Shown here: piece by piece, positions 5,351 through 19,862 of the stretch
Numbering within the stretch: the first letter of the stretch is position 1
Layout of the letters: every line of letters begins with the position of its first letter
DNA from: a virus
IMG/VR virus record: IMGVR_UViG_3300030419_006744
Coordinates: 5,590-32,113 of that record
Reading direction: 5' to 3' (one strand)
Length of the DNA stretch: 26,524 nt
Translations under genes and position numbers: made by a program
The notes under the pieces: model-generated
The model's input: only the letters and a program-made list of their open reading frames with translations
Database searches by the model: none
What the model was told of the DNA's origin: nothing

Positions 5351-6097
5351 TTACCCAAGAAGTTCTTGGAACGCCTGATCAACAGTACTCGTCTCCGACG
5401 AGCTGTTGGTATACTTGGAAGCTTCGGAGGAAACTTCATCGGCATCAGAGTCACCAAGTAAATACTCATCGAGCATCCCTTGAACTTGCTCTGGGGTCTT
5501 TCGTTCGAAAACGCTAGCAAAATCAGGTACCTGATCGAGTACCTGGGCAACCTTCTCATCAGACTCCATAAGACGCGTGGGGCGGCGTCGTGGAGTGAGT
5601 GACGTCTGAGGAAACTGCGCTCCTGGAGGCTTGCCATATGTCAATACCAAGTCAGTACCCTCTTCAACATCAGTGATGTCGCCATAGTCAGGATTCAGAA
5701 CAAGGTTCAAAAGCTCCTGATAAGCAGTTTTGCCAAAGCCCCACAAGCGTACGCCTTCGGCTTCCTCGCCACGGACAATCACCGGTGCGAAGAAACGCTG
5801 ACGTGCCATGAGATTCTTGGCCATCTTGATGCTGTCATCTGTCCCCTCTTTAAACAAGGAGCGGACAAACGTATCCAACGGATCGTCTTCGCCAAAATTC
5901 TTCTTTGGACTCAAAAATCCAGGATTGTTTCCAACATTGTAGTGGAACCAGTACTCCTTGAAGGGGTCACCGTCCGGGGTTGGAACAATACGAATTGTCT
6001 GCTCCCCGTCTTGAGGGCGCCAGAAGACGCTCTTCTTATCACTCTTTTGCTGGAGGGCTGTAAGCTTAGCCCTCATCTTATCCATATCAATACCCAT
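5351..6097 (-). CDS. 32: gp32-like single-stranded DNA-binding protein
   Basis: It coats single-stranded DNA during replication, recombination and repair. The 248 residues (T4 gp32 has 301) begin with a basic segment (residues 1-22) where T4 gp32 has its cooperativity domain. The OB-fold core follows, with VFWRPQDGEQTIRIVP (24-39) and the family's PFKEYWFHY (45-53). The C-terminal third is acidic and Ser/Asp-rich and ends QAFQELLG, like the acidic tail that contacts partner proteins. The protein has no cysteine, so the structural zinc site of T4 gp32 is absent. The ATG has an AAGGAG site. It is followed at once by a terminator. The 82-nt leader carries a small hairpin that could be regulatory. 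Confidence 0.88.
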   Translation of the reverse strand: MGIDMDKMRAKLTALQQKSDKKSVFWRPQDGEQTIRIVPTPDGDPFKEYWFHYNVGNNPGFLSPKKNFGEDDPLDTFVRSLFKEGTDDSIKMAKNLMARQRFFAPVIVRGEEAEGVRLWGFGKTAYQELLNLVLNPDYGDITDVEEGTDLVLTYGKPPGAQFPQTSLTPRRRPTRLMESDEKVAQVLDQVPDFASVFERKTPEQVQGMLDEYLLGDSDADEVSSEASKYTNSSSETSTVDQAFQELLG

Positions 6098-13517: not shown

Positions 13518-15041
13518 TTAGAGGAGCATCTTGTTGTGGACCAAGACGCCATCTGCAAAATAGTTTCTGTTATCTGAAACAGTAAAGTTGTATGTAGGTA
13601 TATCACCAGTTACGATTTCGTTGATTTCTGTTAGTGTTATTGTATCTCCACTATCAGTAATACATCTATCCCCCACTTCAATCAAACATGTGCCTTCAAG
13701 ATCTGTAGTCTTATAACGCGCAATGGTTAGATCAGGTTTATACGATGTCCATCCTTTCCCAACTACATAGTATGGGTGATCGTACGTATGTTGAGTTTTA
13801 ACGCCATTCGAGAACACAAACTCAACGATATCGCTATGCAATGGTTGCATCAACTCAAGAACAGACTTGGCCTCAGTTTCTTGAGTTTCTAAATTATAAG
13901 AGACAACCAAGTCACCAGCTTTTATATCTTCAATCTTAATGCTTTCTATCGTATTGTCAGGCCCGGGAACGCTGATCATTGTACCAGCAACAAAGCAAAC
14001 ACCCGCTGGAGCATCGCCGGTGGCTGCGCTTTCTTCACTGTTCTCTACGGCTTCATGCACTTCGCCGGCAGCATCTTGGCCGGCCACCTCTCCTCCGTCA
14101 CCAGCGGTCATTGCTTGATCCGCGCTACTGTCAGCTGCGGCGTTGTCGCCATCCCCATCTGCATCTGTTGGAGCACCTCCTCCGTCTGCGCCTTGCGCGC
14201 TGCCTCCAGCAGTATATGATTTCGACTTGGCATACGGAAAATTACTGAAACCGGAGCGAGGAGTGTGCGAAACAGTATATCCTAGCTCATGAGTATGCCA
14301 TACATGGAATGTTATATCCATACTAACTGATTGTGGATATATCTTGGCATGCTCTTCTAAAAGGTGGCCAGTGAAAACACCTTCATCCAAATTAGGGGTA
14401 TAGGTAATGCCAGCGATTCGCCCGGTGAGGCCTTGGGATTGTGCGCTGGGTGCTGGAGCACGGGATGAATCCTGTATTAGATTTGCTAACTTAAGCTTCC
14501 ACACTGGAGGAGATTGGATTATTCCCACGCTCGAACTCCACGATCCTGCCTTTACCGGTTCTATTTTATAAGTTGGATACAGACCTCGTATCAAAGCGGA
14601 GATCATTCTTTGATTTGCCCACGCTTCTTTGTTAGTTGCAGCCATAATATCAAAGCCCAAGTTGATAACTCTCTTTGTACCTTTAAATGTCTCGATCGGA
14701 TCCATTCTGCCATATACGTGTTCAGATGCCCACTCGGAAGAAAAGCTGTCATCAAATTTTGTCAGCCAGCAGCGAAAACGAATATTTGGGCTGTAAACAT
14801 TTCCGGCGTGTGTGTCGACCCGGGCATGCCTATCATGGTTGCCCCCAATATGTACAGGGTAGAACATAATATCATATTCCGGGCTGTATTGTTCGCCTCC
14901 AGAATAAAACTTATTTTGCGACACCCAGCGCCAGGAAGGAGAGTTTGGTGGATTACCAGGGCCTGCATCGCTTGTATCCGCGTCCTGCCACCAAGCTTTT
15001 GACCCCAATTCCGGCTCTTTTTCATCATCAAACCAAGACAT
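13518..15041 (-). CDS. Tail/baseplate protein with C-terminal Hint (intein-like) domain
   Basis: 507 residues in three parts. Residues 1-278 form a structural domain with a tail-tube-initiator-like segment (YGRMDPIETFKGTKRVINLG and the following helix ending GLYPTY). Residues 279-348 are a Gly/Ala/Asp-rich linker of low complexity. Residues 349-503 are a Hint domain: the N-terminal nucleophile is in CFVAGTMI (C349), then IEDIKAGDLVVSYN, block B as TYDHPYYV (T419, H422), and the C-terminal block NYFADGVLVHN with H502 and N503. Only KMLL follows. The +1 residue is Lys, not Cys/Ser/Thr, so normal splicing is unlikely; self-cleavage at either end remains possible. The arrangement resembles bacterial intein-like and toxin-associated HINT domains. 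The ATG has a strong CAGGAGG and ACTATTTA-like motifs upstream. Baseplate assignment is from context. Confidence 0.82.
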   Translation of the reverse strand: MSWFDDEKEPELGSKAWWQDADTSDAGPGNPPNSPSWRWVSQNKFYSGGEQYSPEYDIMFYPVHIGGNHDRHARVDTHAGNVYSPNIRFRCWLTKFDDSFSSEWASEHVYGRMDPIETFKGTKRVINLGFDIMAATNKEAWANQRMISALIRGLYPTYKIEPVKAGSWSSSVGIIQSPPVWKLKLANLIQDSSRAPAPSAQSQGLTGRIAGITYTPNLDEGVFTGHLLEEHAKIYPQSVSMDITFHVWHTHELGYTVSHTPRSGFSNFPYAKSKSYTAGGSAQGADGGGAPTDADGDGDNAAADSSADQAMTAGDGGEVAGQDAAGEVHEAVENSEESAATGDAPAGVCFVAGTMISVPGPDNTIESIKIEDIKAGDLVVSYNLETQETEAKSVLELMQPLHSDIVEFVFSNGVKTQHTYDHPYYVVGKGWTSYKPDLTIARYKTTDLEGTCLIEVGDRCITDSGDTITLTEINEIVTGDIPTYNFTVSDNRNYFADGVLVHNKMLL

Positions 15042-15084: not shown

Positions 15085-17841
15085 TTAAATAGTCTCATTG
15101 ACAACATTAGTCACTGCCCGGGCAAACTCTCGATCATTCACCTTTAAAACAACTTCTATTGGTTGGCCCGGGGAGGCTACCGCTCCTCTGGCGCCGCCTG
15201 CACCGGCTGCTGCTGCAGCGGCTTGTTGGCGTGTTGGTATAGGGGCTGCTGCTGCAGCTGTTCTTGCGCCGCCGGCGGCCATGACGGATGCGGCGCCGAC
15301 TGCAGTTATAGTTGCAGTGGCAGTAAAGGATTTCGAAAGTTCAGCCAAGCTGTCCATGGACGTGCCAAATGCAATTGTCTTATCTTCATCAATATTGTCT
15401 AATGCATCGGCTATTTCACCGATAGCTTCAGCAATTTTGGAGAAAGTGTCAAAATTAGTACTTATTTGCCCTAAACCAGCTAGCGAGGTGCCGATTGATT
15501 GTAGCTTGCTTTCGCTAACAAGCAGTAAGCCGATGCCAAGCCCTAACATGCCTTTTCCTAGTGACGCCATGCCAAAGGCAGCGACGGGAGCCCACAAGGC
15601 TAACTTCATTATTGATGGTGCCAGCTCAGCTAAGCCTACCGATGCAATAGCTATGCCTGCGCCCATCAAAAGTATGCCCGCGCCGAAGCCCATCATGCCG
15701 GCTGCAGCTGCTGGCAGGACTCCTGTATATATCAGGATGCCTAAAATAGCACCTAGGGCCACCATGCCTACAACTAGATATCCAATTGCTGTGACGGCGG
15801 CGCCTATTTGCTCGCCGCCCAGAGCGGCAAAAGATTTCACTAGCTGCGCTAGGCCTAAAGCGGCGATCGCGATTGCGCCGCCGATCATTAATACTGCAGC
15901 ACCAAATGCTAAAGTGGGTGCTACTGCAGCCCACGTCGAGGATGCGACCGCTTGGTTGATCGGTATCTGTTGCGTCTTCACCACGTTACTTTGCACCATT
16001 GGAGCGATGCTGCCTTGTTCGGCCGCTGTTTTGGCAGCTATAGACGCAGTTACACCTGTGTTGGTCGCTATCTCTTTCATCGAGTTGGCCATGTTAAGCT
16101 GTGCTTGTACTAGTGCTGCAGCTTGGCGTGCTCTGGTGATCTTCCACCAAAGTGCGCCAATGCTCAAGGCGATGGTGACACCAGAGACGACTTTGCCATA
16201 TTCAGCCATGAAAGATGCAGCAACTTTCAGTCCTTCGACCAAAGGACGTATTGCAATTGACATTGACTCAACCACTGCCTGAAACGACTGTGAGACATCC
16301 ATTGCTGCTTTAGCCCGCTCTTCCTGTTCTTTTTGAGATATTGCCAACAATTCAGATTGTGCAATTGCGTTGTCATATTCTGATAGGCTCTGGCCAAATA
16401 TTTTATTTGCCTCAGACATATTTGATATGCCGGCAGCGGCAGCAACGGCCTGTTTCTCGTGCCTGCCCATATCTTTCCATGCTTTACCACCCATCTCAAT
16501 AGACTCAATCATCATCCGAATTCTGTTTTCTTCAGTGGCTTCCATAAGCGAATATGCGTCCAAATTAGCGCCGAGGATCGAGTTCAGCTTTGCAGCAGAG
16601 GTGGCGGCGCCGTCAAAAGTGTCGAACTTCTTTGCTACACTCATCAATCCATCCATCGACACACCAGTTGCATGGGCTGCGGCCTGCAAGCCGGCGAAGA
16701 CCTCTATAGCATCGTCACCATACTTACCCAGCTCTGTTAAAGAAGCATTAAATTCACTCATAACAGCATTGACATCTTTTCCTAGCGAATCTGCTAATCC
16801 AACAAGTTGTTTTTGCATGTCCATAGCCACTTCATTGCTAAGCTGAAAGCCTTTTGTTAGTTCATTTAGCATCTTAGCGCTGTCGCGGCCGGAGACACCC
16901 ATCTTATCCATCTGAGCAACGTGGGTGGCCAGCGCTTCAGCGGACGCGTCGGAAGCGTCGCGAAAACCAACCATTTCTGATCTTAGAGCTTGTAAAGCGG
17001 CACTAGAGTCCTGTAAAGTTACTCCTAGATGACGATTTTTGTCGTTTACGTTTGTCAAGACCTGATCATACCTACCGGCGGCGCCAGTAGTCTTGTTGAA
17101 ACTAGCCAATGCGGCGTCTTGATCTTTAGCAAACTTAAGTGTTGATTGGCCGATTTTCATCAAAGTGGATCCAAGTACATTTTGCCACTTCAGGGCGTCT
17201 AAAGTGCTATCCGTAACCATAGCTAGCGCCTTGGAGAAACCGCCGGCGTCCCTAGAAGCTACAACCAGCTGACCTGTAAAGGTGCCTTTCCACGCATCAC
17301 TAATGCCGGTGGTCATACCAATTAATCGCTTTGATGAACCCTCAAGACCCTTGATAGCTTCAACAGACTCTTGCTGAATCTTTAATTGCTTTAGTTGTTG
17401 CTGTATTAAGGCTTCTGTTGCTTTCTGCTGTTCTTTGAGTCTTCCTAGGGTTTGTTCTAGAGTCTCATTTCCTTGTCTTCCGGCCTCAAGGGCCCGTTGG
17501 TCTTCTTCCGATAGGGCTTTTTTGCGCTCGATGGCCTGCTCAAGAGCTAGAATGTTCCTATCTTGCTCGCCAACAAGCTGCTCATTGGCTTCAATAGATT
17601 TTTCTAATTGCTTTGTTTCTTGTTCTCGCAGATCAAGCAATTTAAGCTGCAAATTGATGCGGTCGTTTAAAGTGTTTTTATCTTTATATTCTTCTAAGAC
17701 ACGCTCTTTGATGCTTTTTAATATTTCTCTATTAATCGCTACTTCTTTTTTGCGATCTTCAACCGTCTTGCCAACTTCATCAGCGTATTCTCTTTGGGCC
17801 TTTGCAAGCTCCTTGAGTTGTTCTTTTGTCATTTCACTCAT
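15085..17841 (-). CDS. Tail tape measure protein
   Basis: It sets tail length and lies inside the tail tube before DNA ejection. The 918 residues show the usual organisation: about 165 N-terminal residues of charged heptad-rich coiled coil (KEQLKELAKAQREYADEVGK and on), a long helical middle with many Ala, Ser, Asp and Met, then strongly hydrophobic segments at roughly 545-570, 650-680 and 690-790 (for example GAAVLMIGGAIAIAALGLA), and an Ala/Gly-rich C-terminal part ending VVNETI. No peptidoglycan hydrolase motif is seen. The ATG at 17841 has AGGA, 13 nt after the small gene upstream. The stop codon is embedded in an ACTATTTA motif. Confidence 0.93.
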   Translation of the reverse strand: MSEMTKEQLKELAKAQREYADEVGKTVEDRKKEVAINREILKSIKERVLEEYKDKNTLNDRINLQLKLLDLREQETKQLEKSIEANEQLVGEQDRNILALEQAIERKKALSEEDQRALEAGRQGNETLEQTLGRLKEQQKATEALIQQQLKQLKIQQESVEAIKGLEGSSKRLIGMTTGISDAWKGTFTGQLVVASRDAGGFSKALAMVTDSTLDALKWQNVLGSTLMKIGQSTLKFAKDQDAALASFNKTTGAAGRYDQVLTNVNDKNRHLGVTLQDSSAALQALRSEMVGFRDASDASAEALATHVAQMDKMGVSGRDSAKMLNELTKGFQLSNEVAMDMQKQLVGLADSLGKDVNAVMSEFNASLTELGKYGDDAIEVFAGLQAAAHATGVSMDGLMSVAKKFDTFDGAATSAAKLNSILGANLDAYSLMEATEENRIRMMIESIEMGGKAWKDMGRHEKQAVAAAAGISNMSEANKIFGQSLSEYDNAIAQSELLAISQKEQEERAKAAMDVSQSFQAVVESMSIAIRPLVEGLKVAASFMAEYGKVVSGVTIALSIGALWWKITRARQAAALVQAQLNMANSMKEIATNTGVTASIAAKTAAEQGSIAPMVQSNVVKTQQIPINQAVASSTWAAVAPTLAFGAAVLMIGGAIAIAALGLAQLVKSFAALGGEQIGAAVTAIGYLVVGMVALGAILGILIYTGVLPAAAAGMMGFGAGILLMGAGIAIASVGLAELAPSIMKLALWAPVAAFGMASLGKGMLGLGIGLLLVSESKLQSIGTSLAGLGQISTNFDTFSKIAEAIGEIADALDNIDEDKTIAFGTSMDSLAELSKSFTATATITAVGAASVMAAGGARTAAAAAPIPTRQQAAAAAAGAGGARGAVASPGQPIEVVLKVNDREFARAVTNVVNETI
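15086..15093 (-). promoter_or_regulatory. ACTATTTA motif overlapping the tape measure stop
   Basis: Exact copy. Its last bases form the TAA stop of the tape measure gene. It lies 44 nt before the Hint-domain gene and forms a pair with the near copy at 15064. Confidence 0.42.
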
Positions 17842-17854
17842 TCAACGTAGTTTC

Positions 17855-18181
17855 CTATTTGAACGGCCATTTTAAACCAGTTGTGCGCTCAAATTTGGCA
17901 ATAGAAGAAGCTAGCTCAGCTTTGCTCTTATAGGTTCTAGGATTTTGTAATCCATAATCCCTCAAAGCCGTCATATATCTCTTTTCACTTCGTACCGTAT
18001 TGGCAAAGGCTGCAACGTCAGCACGAGATCCTTTAATCTGGACTGGGACTCCAATATCTTCACCGAACATTTGCTGCAAAACTAATTTAATTGCTGAGCC
18101 AAACATAGTTAGCCAGCTTTCATTAAGATTGCCGCTTCTCGCAGCTGTTAAGTCAATTATTCTGGGTGTTAAATCATTCAT
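17855..18181 (-). CDS. Small protein between assembly chaperones and tape measure, unknown
   Basis: 108 residues, basic at the C-terminus (ERTTGLKWPFK), mostly helical by eye, without Cys or membrane segment. I do not recognise the family. Its position, after a terminator and an ACTATTTA motif and immediately before the tape measure, suggests a role in tail assembly or tape measure folding. The ATG at 18181 follows TTAGAGGA. The stop is 13 nt before the tape measure start, so the two are probably translated from one message. Confidence 0.7.
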   Translation of the reverse strand: MNDLTPRIIDLTAARSGNLNESWLTMFGSAIKLVLQQMFGEDIGVPVQIKGSRADVAAFANTVRSEKRYMTALRDYGLQNPRTYKSKAELASSIAKFERTTGLKWPFK

Positions 18182-18252: not shown

Positions 18253-18522
18253 CTAGCCTCTTTTTCTTTTGGCCTTTTCTATTTGTTCTTTTTCTGACTC
18301 AAGTTGTCTTGCAAGACGATGGATAAACCACCTACGAATCTTGATTGGCAAGCTATATGCTTCAGTAAAGCTCCAGCCGCCAAAATACTTTAATGTAAAG
18401 ATCTCATCGTAGACGCTCTCTATATATTCATCGCCCAGGCCAAAAAAAGTCCGCAGTGAGCGGAACCTCCATCTGCTGTGAGTACCCACATGAATCACAG
18501 GTAAAGTCTTGCGTAAGATCAA
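18253..18522 (-). CDS. Overlapping ORF after the gp26-like gene, probable frameshift extension
   Basis: An open frame in the +1 register relative to the gp26-like gene. The plausible protein part starts at about 18441 (GLGDEYIESVYDEIFTLKYF, then GGWSFTEAYSLPIKIRRWF) and ends with a charged helix (RQLESEKEQIEKAKRKRG). No ATG exists. Possible starts are TTG at 18520-18522 without a Shine-Dalgarno, CTG at 18454-18456 with GGAGG nine nt upstream, or entry by ribosomal frameshift on the run of seven T at 18442-18448. A frameshift would join 288 residues of the gp26-like protein to these 62, giving about 350. The arrangement, just before the tape measure region, copies the G/G-T tail chaperone pairs of other phages. 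The true N-terminus is uncertain. Confidence 0.6.
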   Translation of the reverse strand: MILRKTLPVIHVGTHSRWRFRSLRTFFGLGDEYIESVYDEIFTLKYFGGWSFTEAYSLPIKIRRWFIHRLARQLESEKEQIEKAKRKRG

Positions 18523-19306
18523 TATTAGGCATCAACGATGAATACGCTTGGCGCAAGAATCTTGAATCTGAAGCCGGCATATGCTCTATTAGCTCACCAA
18601 TAGTTTTTTTACTATTGCTGCCGTTGACAGATACAATAAACATTCGCAACTGATCGGTTAAAATCGAGTCACCTTGGAGGCCATGGTTCTTTCTTTTTTT
18701 AGAAAAAGCGACGTATTGGTTTTCATCTGATCCTGTCAAAAGCTTGATTTCAACTTTTGCTTTCATCTTCGGCAACTCTACAATAAAAGTAGCATTATCC
18801 GTCATGATAAACGTTTCATCTTCTTCTTCAAGTTCCAAATAGCCACCAGTTATCTTTGAATCTTCTAAATCGAATTCATGCTTGCCGTTGGCAGTGCATG
18901 ACGGACATGATACAGAAGTAGAATAATTAGCGCCGTAGCCTGTAATCCTTGTCGCAACGACCAACGCGTTCTTGTCACCGACAAGCATATCTTCGATCTT
19001 AAGATTCTTGTCAACAATGACATTTTGCAACAATCTATCAACTGCAACACCCTTTTTAAGAAGATTTCTAGATGCTAGGATATCTTCATCTTTAGCCGTC
19101 ATATATCGAATTTCAATGTACTCCTTGTTATGTAGGGGGTGGCCTTCAGGATATAACTTTCCTTTTGAGGGCAAATCTACAAACTCAGTCGGAGTCGAAA
19201 ACGATAATGGAGCGGCGGTGGGCTCCGGGCCAGCTTGGTCAACTGGGCCAACAGGAGGCTCGGACGCCTGCGCAGGCTGCCCTAACCTATCCGTATTATT
19301 TCTCAT
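18428..19306 (-). CDS. 26: gp26-like baseplate hub / tail assembly protein
   Basis: 292 residues. After a Pro/Ala-rich N-terminus (1-35) come the family features FVDLPSKGKLYPEG (42-55), YMTAKDEDIL (68-77), a GDKNALVVATRITGYG segment (110-125), and a terminal FFWP (287-290). Two CxxC pairs, CPSC (134-137) and CDSC (270-273), probably form a zinc ribbon. This is the T4-like gp26/baseplate-assembly type of protein. Its place between the tail tube gene and the tape measure is also the position of tail assembly chaperones. The ATG has AGAGGT. The end overlaps the next ORF around a run of seven T, where the frame may change. Confidence 0.78.
   Translation of the reverse strand: MRNNTDRLGQPAQASEPPVGPVDQAGPEPTAAPLSFSTPTEFVDLPSKGKLYPEGHPLHNKEYIEIRYMTAKDEDILASRNLLKKGVAVDRLLQNVIVDKNLKIEDMLVGDKNALVVATRITGYGANYSTSVSCPSCTANGKHEFDLEDSKITGGYLELEEEDETFIMTDNATFIVELPKMKAKVEIKLLTGSDENQYVAFSKKRKNHGLQGDSILTDQLRMFIVSVNGSNSKKTIGELIEHMPASDSRFLRQAYSSLMPNIDLTQDFTCDSCGYSQQMEVPLTADFFWPGR
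18442..18448 (-). promoter_or_regulatory. Run of seven T, candidate +1 frameshift site
   Basis: The gp26-like frame reads GAC TTT TTT TGG CCT. Slipping one base forward lets the Phe tRNA re-pair perfectly on TTT and the ribosome continue with GGC CTG GGC in the overlapping ORF. A GGAGG lies 17 nt upstream and could stimulate pausing or serve as a start site. Transcript slippage on the T run is an alternative. Confidence 0.45.
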
Positions 19307-19340: not shown

Positions 19341-19862
19341 CTAGACTGTAGTATCTTTGGTAGCAAAGTCATAACGTATTACCATGTCAATATTTACCAT
19401 ATCATCAGATTCGTAGCTAAGCTCTCCGTACTTTACTTCCTTAACCCAAGCATTATTCAAGTCCCATGCTTCGATGACAAGACCATCGGAGTCGATTTGC
19501 TCTATTCTAACGTTACCAAGAGCGAAGATCGCGTCAGCGCGATTAATCATAACCTGGGCCTGTTCAGGAGTCTCAGGATTATTGTAGCCTGAAGAATTGA
19601 TAATATCCATAGTAATTTTTGACGCGTCGGGAGAAACTGGATCGGCTAATGTCACGTCGATCGTTTGCCACTCTAATCTACCAGGAAAATAAAACGTATG
19701 ATTCAAAAACTTATGAGGAGTTTCTGAAATCTGGAAACTTGGCTTTGTGACCTTCTTAGCCACCCAAGAAGGAACTTGGCGGTCTCCTTCGCCCATATAA
19801 AGTAAGAACTTAAAAGATCTTTTAGGCTGTACTGTTGGATCTGACCAGAACTTGTTGGACAT
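19341..19862 (-). CDS. 19: Tail tube protein, gp19-like
   Basis: The subunit of the inner tail tube. The 173 residues are close to T4 gp19 (163). Landmarks are FKFLLYMGEG near the start, VAKKVTKPSFQISE (34-47) in the place of the conserved tube-forming strand, NHTFYFPGRLEWQTIDVTLADP (by parts; 54-75), and the C-terminal beta segment ending RYDFATKDTTV. It follows the sheath gene at 45 nt, the normal order. The ATG has GGAGA. Confidence 0.92.
   Translation of the reverse strand: MSNKFWSDPTVQPKRSFKFLLYMGEGDRQVPSWVAKKVTKPSFQISETPHKFLNHTFYFPGRLEWQTIDVTLADPVSPDASKITMDIINSSGYNNPETPEQAQVMINRADAIFALGNVRIEQIDSDGLVIEAWDLNNAWVKEVKYGELSYESDDMVNIDMVIRYDFATKDTTV

Follow-up and report, generated by a model that had tools for sequence, protein, structure and literature searches.

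A gp26-like gene of T4-related phages with a probable +1 frameshift into a proposed tail-chaperone extension

According to the Atkins 2016 review (PMC5009743), frameshifting to give G-T is widely conserved among phages with long tails, 'except T4'. For T4 itself, both gp26 and gp51 have been listed among the hub assembly chaperones, and gp51 is missing from the final particle (PMC3004832); the T4 tail review describes gp51 as essential with unknown function. The gp51 of cyanophages and vibriophages was reported to be without the first ~200 residues and to resemble the C-terminus of the T4 protein, with frameshifting unmentioned (Sullivan et al., 2010, PMC3037559), and a two-gene form of the chaperone has already been proposed for phage 0305phi8-36 (PMC2147016). 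In the literature that we searched (most subscription papers and preprints were outside the search), the papers found mention neither frameshifting in the gp26 family nor DUF6760.

The DNA analysed here (the window) is a stretch of 26,524 nucleotides, which carries a T4-like structural operon on its minus strand and is part of a 32-kb virus record (IMG/VR record IMGVR_UViG_3300030419_006744, positions 5,590 to 32,113). The operon runs in the order gp23-type capsid protein, sheath, tube, gp26-like protein, ORF2, a 108-aa ORF, tape measure protein and further tail genes. On that strand, the tail tube protein is gp19-like (19341..19862; phrog_4542, 6.7e-25), the gp26-like 0-frame ORF, which is the proposed 'G' product, encodes 292 aa (18428..19306; PF12322 (T4_baseplate), 5e-15; phrog_150, 1.1e-16), and the tape measure protein (15085..17841, 918 aa) was recognised by a weak match to phrog_167 (E = 0.0024) and by its position after the tube and the gp26-like gene. 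Overlapping ORFs in different frames thus sit between the tube (19862-19341) and the tape measure (17841-15085), which is the arrangement by which G/G-T pairs are recognised. The 108-aa ORF (17855..18181, minus strand), located between the proposed chaperone pair and the tape measure, had no family match in Pfam and PHROG profile searches; an ORF of ~110 aa is found in the same place in HTVC008M. A tail/baseplate-region protein on the same strand (13518-15041) has a C-terminal Hint/intein-like domain (PF07591, PF08517, PF14890) ending in ...FADGVLVHNKMLL, and because Ser, Thr and Cys are absent after HN, this structural gene may carry a Hint domain that does not splice.

The junction in the window

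The 3' end of the gp26-like ORF reads ...CTC ACT GCG GAC TTT TTT TGG CCT GGG CGA TGA, in which the slip site GAC TTT TTT TGG (18440..18451, minus strand) contains a run of seven T (18448-18442), and 21 nt span the stretch between its first T and the end of the 0-frame stop TGA (18428..18430). Directly after this run, the +1 frame reads GGC CTG GGC GAT GAA ... (18441-18253), and this is the beginning of ORF2 (18253..18441, minus strand; 62 aa, GLGDEYIESVYDEIF...), the proposed 'T' extension. An earlier note on this DNA had described the two frames as overlapping at TTTTTTT, with the second ORF in the +1 frame, lacking an ATG and protein-like only past the T run, and all of these points were confirmed: no ATG was found in the +1 frame upstream of ORF2 in the window, and the homology of ORF2 to its relatives starts at 18441, with the GGC right behind the run. 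The listed ORF start at 18522 is merely the first TTG past a stop. Counting codons from the GGC, the only candidate starts for ORF2 in the window are one TTG (-27) and two GTG (-19 and -16), and none of them is conserved.

From the site, its conservation, the coding selection on ORF2 and the lack of a conserved start, all read from sequence, we consider it very probable that the gp26-like gene gives a tail-assembly chaperone in two forms through a +1 frameshift at UUU, with the T-like ORF2 domain on the long form; that the fusion is made, in what ratio and with which partners, is what we infer. Most ribosomes would stop 4-5 codons past the T run and release the short G-like form. In a minority, the P site would hold tRNA-Phe on UUU while the A site presents UGG (Trp); the tRNA would then slip by +1 to the UUU that overlaps, or to UUC in variants, and these ribosomes would read on into ORF2 and add the helical 62-residue domain, giving the junction ..TADFF|GLGDE.. 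and a fusion of about 350 aa. The A-site codon UGG is a sense codon, neither a stop nor demonstrably rare, which counts against this reading. The same frame could be reached by -2 frameshifting, of which phage Mu is a known case (PMC5009743), since the seven T allow the P-site UUU to re-pair with the UUU two bases upstream; the product would hold one extra Phe (ADFFFGL), so that the expected junction peptide is TADFFGLGDE for +1 and TADFFFGLGDE for -2.

Conservation of the site and of ORF2 among relatives

The junction was read in 80 IMG/VR relatives of the window (clade A, 48-58% identity) and in 79 scored relatives of Flavobacterium phage immuto (clade B), giving 160 loci with the window included, of which 103 were left once near-copies were removed (55 in clade A and 48 in clade B). 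This comparison, which the earlier note had proposed, recovered an equivalent slip site with a conserved +1 ORF in all 160 scored loci across the two clades. Among the 103 non-redundant relatives, the run begins 18-33 nt before the last base of the 0-frame stop, counted as for the window. The non-redundant sites of the window clade were TTT TTT TGG (52) and TTC TTT TGG (3), and those of the immuto clade were TTT CTT TGG (24), TTT TTT TGG (20), TTT CTA TGG (3) and TTT CTT TAC (1). The first codon of the site was TTT in 52/55 and 48/48 of the two clades, compared with 72-74% usage elsewhere. We also scored 96 further relatives of Mel-JY01 and LR756508 with an ORF2 HMM (partial overlap with the earlier 160 is possible); ORF2 was in the +1 frame in 94 of the 96, which added CTT TTT TGG and TTT TTT TAC to the site variants, along with a group that carries TTC TTT TGG. 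The arrangement of the window is shared by Microcystis phage Mel-JY01 (TTT TTT TGG), Flavobacterium phage immuto (TTT CTT TGG), Bacillus phage SP-15 (TTT TTT CAC), Streptococcus phage GXN1 (TTC TTT CGT), Listeria phage LIS04 (TTT TTT AGT) and LR756508 (TTT CTA TTC). The programmed +1 frameshift put forward in the earlier note is strongly supported by this comparative evidence.

All +1 site variants contain UUU in frame with U or C as the next base, and tRNA-Phe could therefore move forward by one base and pair with UUU or UUC. A slip of -2 would place tRNA-Phe on UCU in the relatives with TTC TTT TGG and would also be mismatched in those with TTT CTT TGG, TTT CTA TGG and TTC TTT CGT, whereas +1 fits all of them, which makes the -2 reading improbable. 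Transcriptional slippage on the seven T could likewise produce an edited mRNA with both ORFs in frame, and the window does offer a homopolymer run of 7. However, runs of 3-4 T are too short for polymerase slippage, and the same arrangement is found with such runs (TTC TTT TGG, TTT CTT TGG, TTT CTA TGG), leaving a very small chance for this explanation. The variants mismatched at -2 and the runs of 3-4 T together therefore favour the +1 shift over both. Homopolymer runs are also prone to sequencing error, and the frame break might in principle be an error of sequencing or assembly, or the mark of a dead gene; but the same break occurs in more than 250 assembled loci (the sets may partly overlap), non-homopolymer variants included, and both frames are under purifying selection, so that this reading is refuted by the relatives and carries hardly any probability.

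Purifying selection on ORF2 is strong (dN/dS of 0.047 in the window clade and 0.107 in the immuto clade). Among pairs at least 75% identical in the window clade, the differences at +1 codon positions 1, 2 and 3 numbered 252, 75 and 783. Across 19 relatives, 13 columns of ORF2 are invariant, and the first of these are the Gly-Leu straight after the slip site (GL..Y..).

A further possibility is that ORF2 is a separate small protein, made by re-initiation or from an internal start other than AUG (the CTG, or a TTG or GTG upstream). The earlier note had named, as the competing explanation, a CTG with a well-spaced GGAGG, and the spacing did not hold: the GGAGG lies at 18470-18466 and the CTG at 18438-18436, and the gap of 27 nt is far outside normal Shine-Dalgarno spacing. 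The CTG is invariant in the immuto clade (48/48), which would suit a start codon, but in the window clade the same position is CTA in 41 of the 55 non-redundant loci, CTC in 7, CTG in only 5, CAA in 1 and TTA in 1. The CTG start thus fails because the codon is variable in the clade of the window and the SD-like element is 27 nt off. No positionally conserved start codon for ORF2 was found among the relatives compared, and between the preceding +1 stop and codon +8, ATG, GTG and TTG were all absent from 18 of the 103 non-redundant relatives (8/55 and 10/48). Relatives whose second ORF has its own ATG and no slippery run, which the earlier note had named as evidence against frameshifting, do exist in the L314/L320 lineage and were found only there: ORF2 has an ATG just past the stop and a different N-terminus, in line with a separate start, but the site is also lost (TTC TTG TAT; TTC CTT TGG). 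Since the site is lost where an ATG exists, this lineage is a natural contrast that ties the site to the missing start. Several phages with ORF2 in the -1 frame (S-PM2, KVP40) also have an ATG just past the gp26 stop, and the upstream SD-like element is strong and conserved beyond coding need, as a separate start would have it; weighed with the points above, we regard such a start as unlikely and +1 frameshifting as the better account of ORF2.

The GGAGG (18466..18470, minus strand), 17 nt from its last base to the T run, is a candidate stimulator, and in the window and its relatives it appears conserved beyond what coding needs. In the window clade, the Glu codon at -7 that makes the GGAGG is GAG in 33/33 (GAG usage is 39%), with a predicted anti-SD pairing that averages -10.5 kcal/mol compared with -6.4 in synonymous resampling, and in the immuto clade a GGAGGG-type element lies further upstream (-10.2 vs. 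-8.3); these counts and duplex energies are descriptive because the rows are related. A downstream stimulatory structure was unsupported (mean z between -0.03 and -0.60).

In two contigs (L003/L222 and L004/L224), ORF2 is in the -1 frame beside a run of eight T (GAT TTT TTT TGG). An insertion of 4 nt past the slip site is the apparent cause, and this is possibly a real switch of slip direction. A scan for the GAT-T8 pattern obtained three lineages of the gp26-like gene and one unrelated match (L223): L219/L221 (same sample) and L220 have ORF2 in +1, and L222/L224, which are L003/L004, have it in -1. With ORF2 in both frames among GAT-T8 lineages, the link from the T8 run to a compensatory switch is weak, and this explanation was set aside.

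A proposed chaperone pair and its relation to T4 gp26 and gp51

The gp26-like protein of the window matches PF12322 with 56.2 bits (cut-off 24.5) over positions 8-219 of the 219 of the profile. The two halves were modelled separately with AF2. Among the PDB matches to the gp26-like model (pLDDT 89.9), the HK97 tail assembly chaperone (gp13, 2ob9) ranks first with a modest score (VIA-align Z 5.7, next 3.8): the N-terminal region aligns over 87 residues with an rmsd of 5.3, and the Foldseek probability of 0.30 (E = 1.1) is the highest among the matches listed. The match suggested by the model is the functionally expected one, at modest strength. The ORF2 model is all-helical with three helices (pLDDT 92.4), and Foldseek found no PDB relative of this fold. 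On the gene order and the HK97 chaperone match, a G/G-T pair is the best reading, and by analogy the gp26-like protein and ORF2 are likely such a chaperone pair made by +1 frameshifting. As with lambda G and G-T, coating of the tape measure would fall to the short form, and bringing in the subunits of the tail tube to the long one; the tape measure protein would then be the expected client of the pair, and the tail tube protein the expected partner of the T extension. Read as 18253-18447 (minus strand), ORF2 also has sub-threshold similarity to DUF6760 (PF20546; E = 0.0034, 17.9 bits with a cut-off of 27), a possible link to other contractile systems; a genome scan of DUF6760 for extracellular contractile injection systems found only phage-like contigs in MAGs.

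T4 gp26 and gp51 both match PF12322 (8.8e-64 and 3.9e-52), gp26 as a full-length member and gp51 with an extra C-terminus. Using an HMM built from the ORF2s of the +1 and -1 types together, with T4 left out, the gp51 C-terminus came top among 124 T4 ORFs (i-Evalue 8e-5, with all others at 1.1 or worse). T4 gp51 was found with the combined and the -1-type HMMs and was not found with an HMM of the +1 ORF2s alone. Similarity of the small ORF after gp26 to the T4 gp51 C-terminus is already annotated in the KVP40 record. In S-PM2, HTVC008M, phiM12, phiW-14, KVP40, RaK2, L177 and Cassandra, a gp51-like ORF lies in the -1 frame beside U_UUU_UUC or U_UUU_UUU, and in HTVC008M no ATG was found before the middle of the domain. 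The same chaperone pair is probably made via -1 frameshifting in some other T4-like phages, which we offer as a hypothesis because several of those with the -1-frame ORF have an ATG near the stop. In RaK2 (L092:4780-4971) and Cassandra (L091:4831-5037), the -1-frame gp51-like second ORF is unannotated in the public record. The phrog_150 'baseplate hub' profile (noted at its positions 227-282) spans both halves; in S-PM2, HTVC008M and phiM12 it matches gp26 and, separately, the -1-frame ORF. Given this coverage of both halves, fused forms are apparently already in that family.

In a tree of 43 rows, a single change is enough to account for the +1 phages (support 90/74). Both T4 genes group with cyanophage-type rows, and the deep order is uncertain because of long branches. 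These data suggest that T4 genes 26 and 51 are the short and long forms held as two paralogous genes. It seems fairly likely to us that T4 is no exception: the ancestral gp26 would have been a G/G-T frameshift gene, with a direction that depends on the lineage (-1 at U_UUU_UUY, +1 at UUU_Y), and in T4 it would have split into 26 and 51, with gp51 as the G-T. If true, frameshifting in T4's gp26 family, +1 in one branch and apparently -1 in others, would end the 'except T4', gp51 would gain a testable role as G-T, and the first ~200 residues of T4 gp51 that are missing from cyanophage gp51 would be explained. A required protein ratio would also have outlasted changes of decoding mechanism, and many genes of marine and freshwater phages would have their annotation corrected.

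Comparison with known systems

Lambda G/G-T resembles the window in having overlapping ORFs before the tape measure, a short product and a frameshifted long one with a small C-terminal extension, and a non-structural chaperone role (inferred for the window). Unlike the window, lambda slips by -1, and the +1 pair is of unrelated sequence (the T4 gp26 family, PF12322), with a G part of 292 aa that has zinc-ribbon-like Cys pairs, unlike lambda G. T4 gp26/gp51 share with the window the PF12322 protein and a gp51 C-terminal extension that matches ORF2, but T4 has a gene for each of the two paralogues, on opposite strands, and uses no frameshift. The short 'gp51' of cyanophages and KVP40, like ORF2, follows gp26 as a small ORF and shares homology with the C-terminus of T4 gp51; unlike ORF2, it is in the -1 frame by U_UUU_UUC/U_UUU_UUU and is annotated as a separate gene, in several cases with an ATG near the stop.

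At prfB (RF2), as proposed for the window, a pyrimidine-rich P-site codon (CUU U) re-pairs by +1 onto UUU. The prfB site differs in having a stop in the A site, where the window has UGG, and an SD-like element at a spacing of about 3 nt, compared with 17 nt upstream in the window. The +1 sites described here would form a family of UUU_Y sites in which the A-site codon is sense; the bacterial sites, by contrast, depend on a stop codon. In the PRFect paper, the P-site codon reported as most slippery for +1 at prfB is CUU, followed by CCC and UUU (PMC10885494). Programmed +1 frameshifting in the tail genes of tailed viruses, as in the window, is known from Listeria PSA and from the tail chaperone of HSTV-2 (PMC5009743). 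In PSA, unlike the window, the shifts occur on CCC codons and fall in the genes of the capsid and the tail shaft, which are not chaperones; HSTV-2 differs as an archaeal myovirus, and its +1 shift, like the one proposed here, lies in a tail chaperone.
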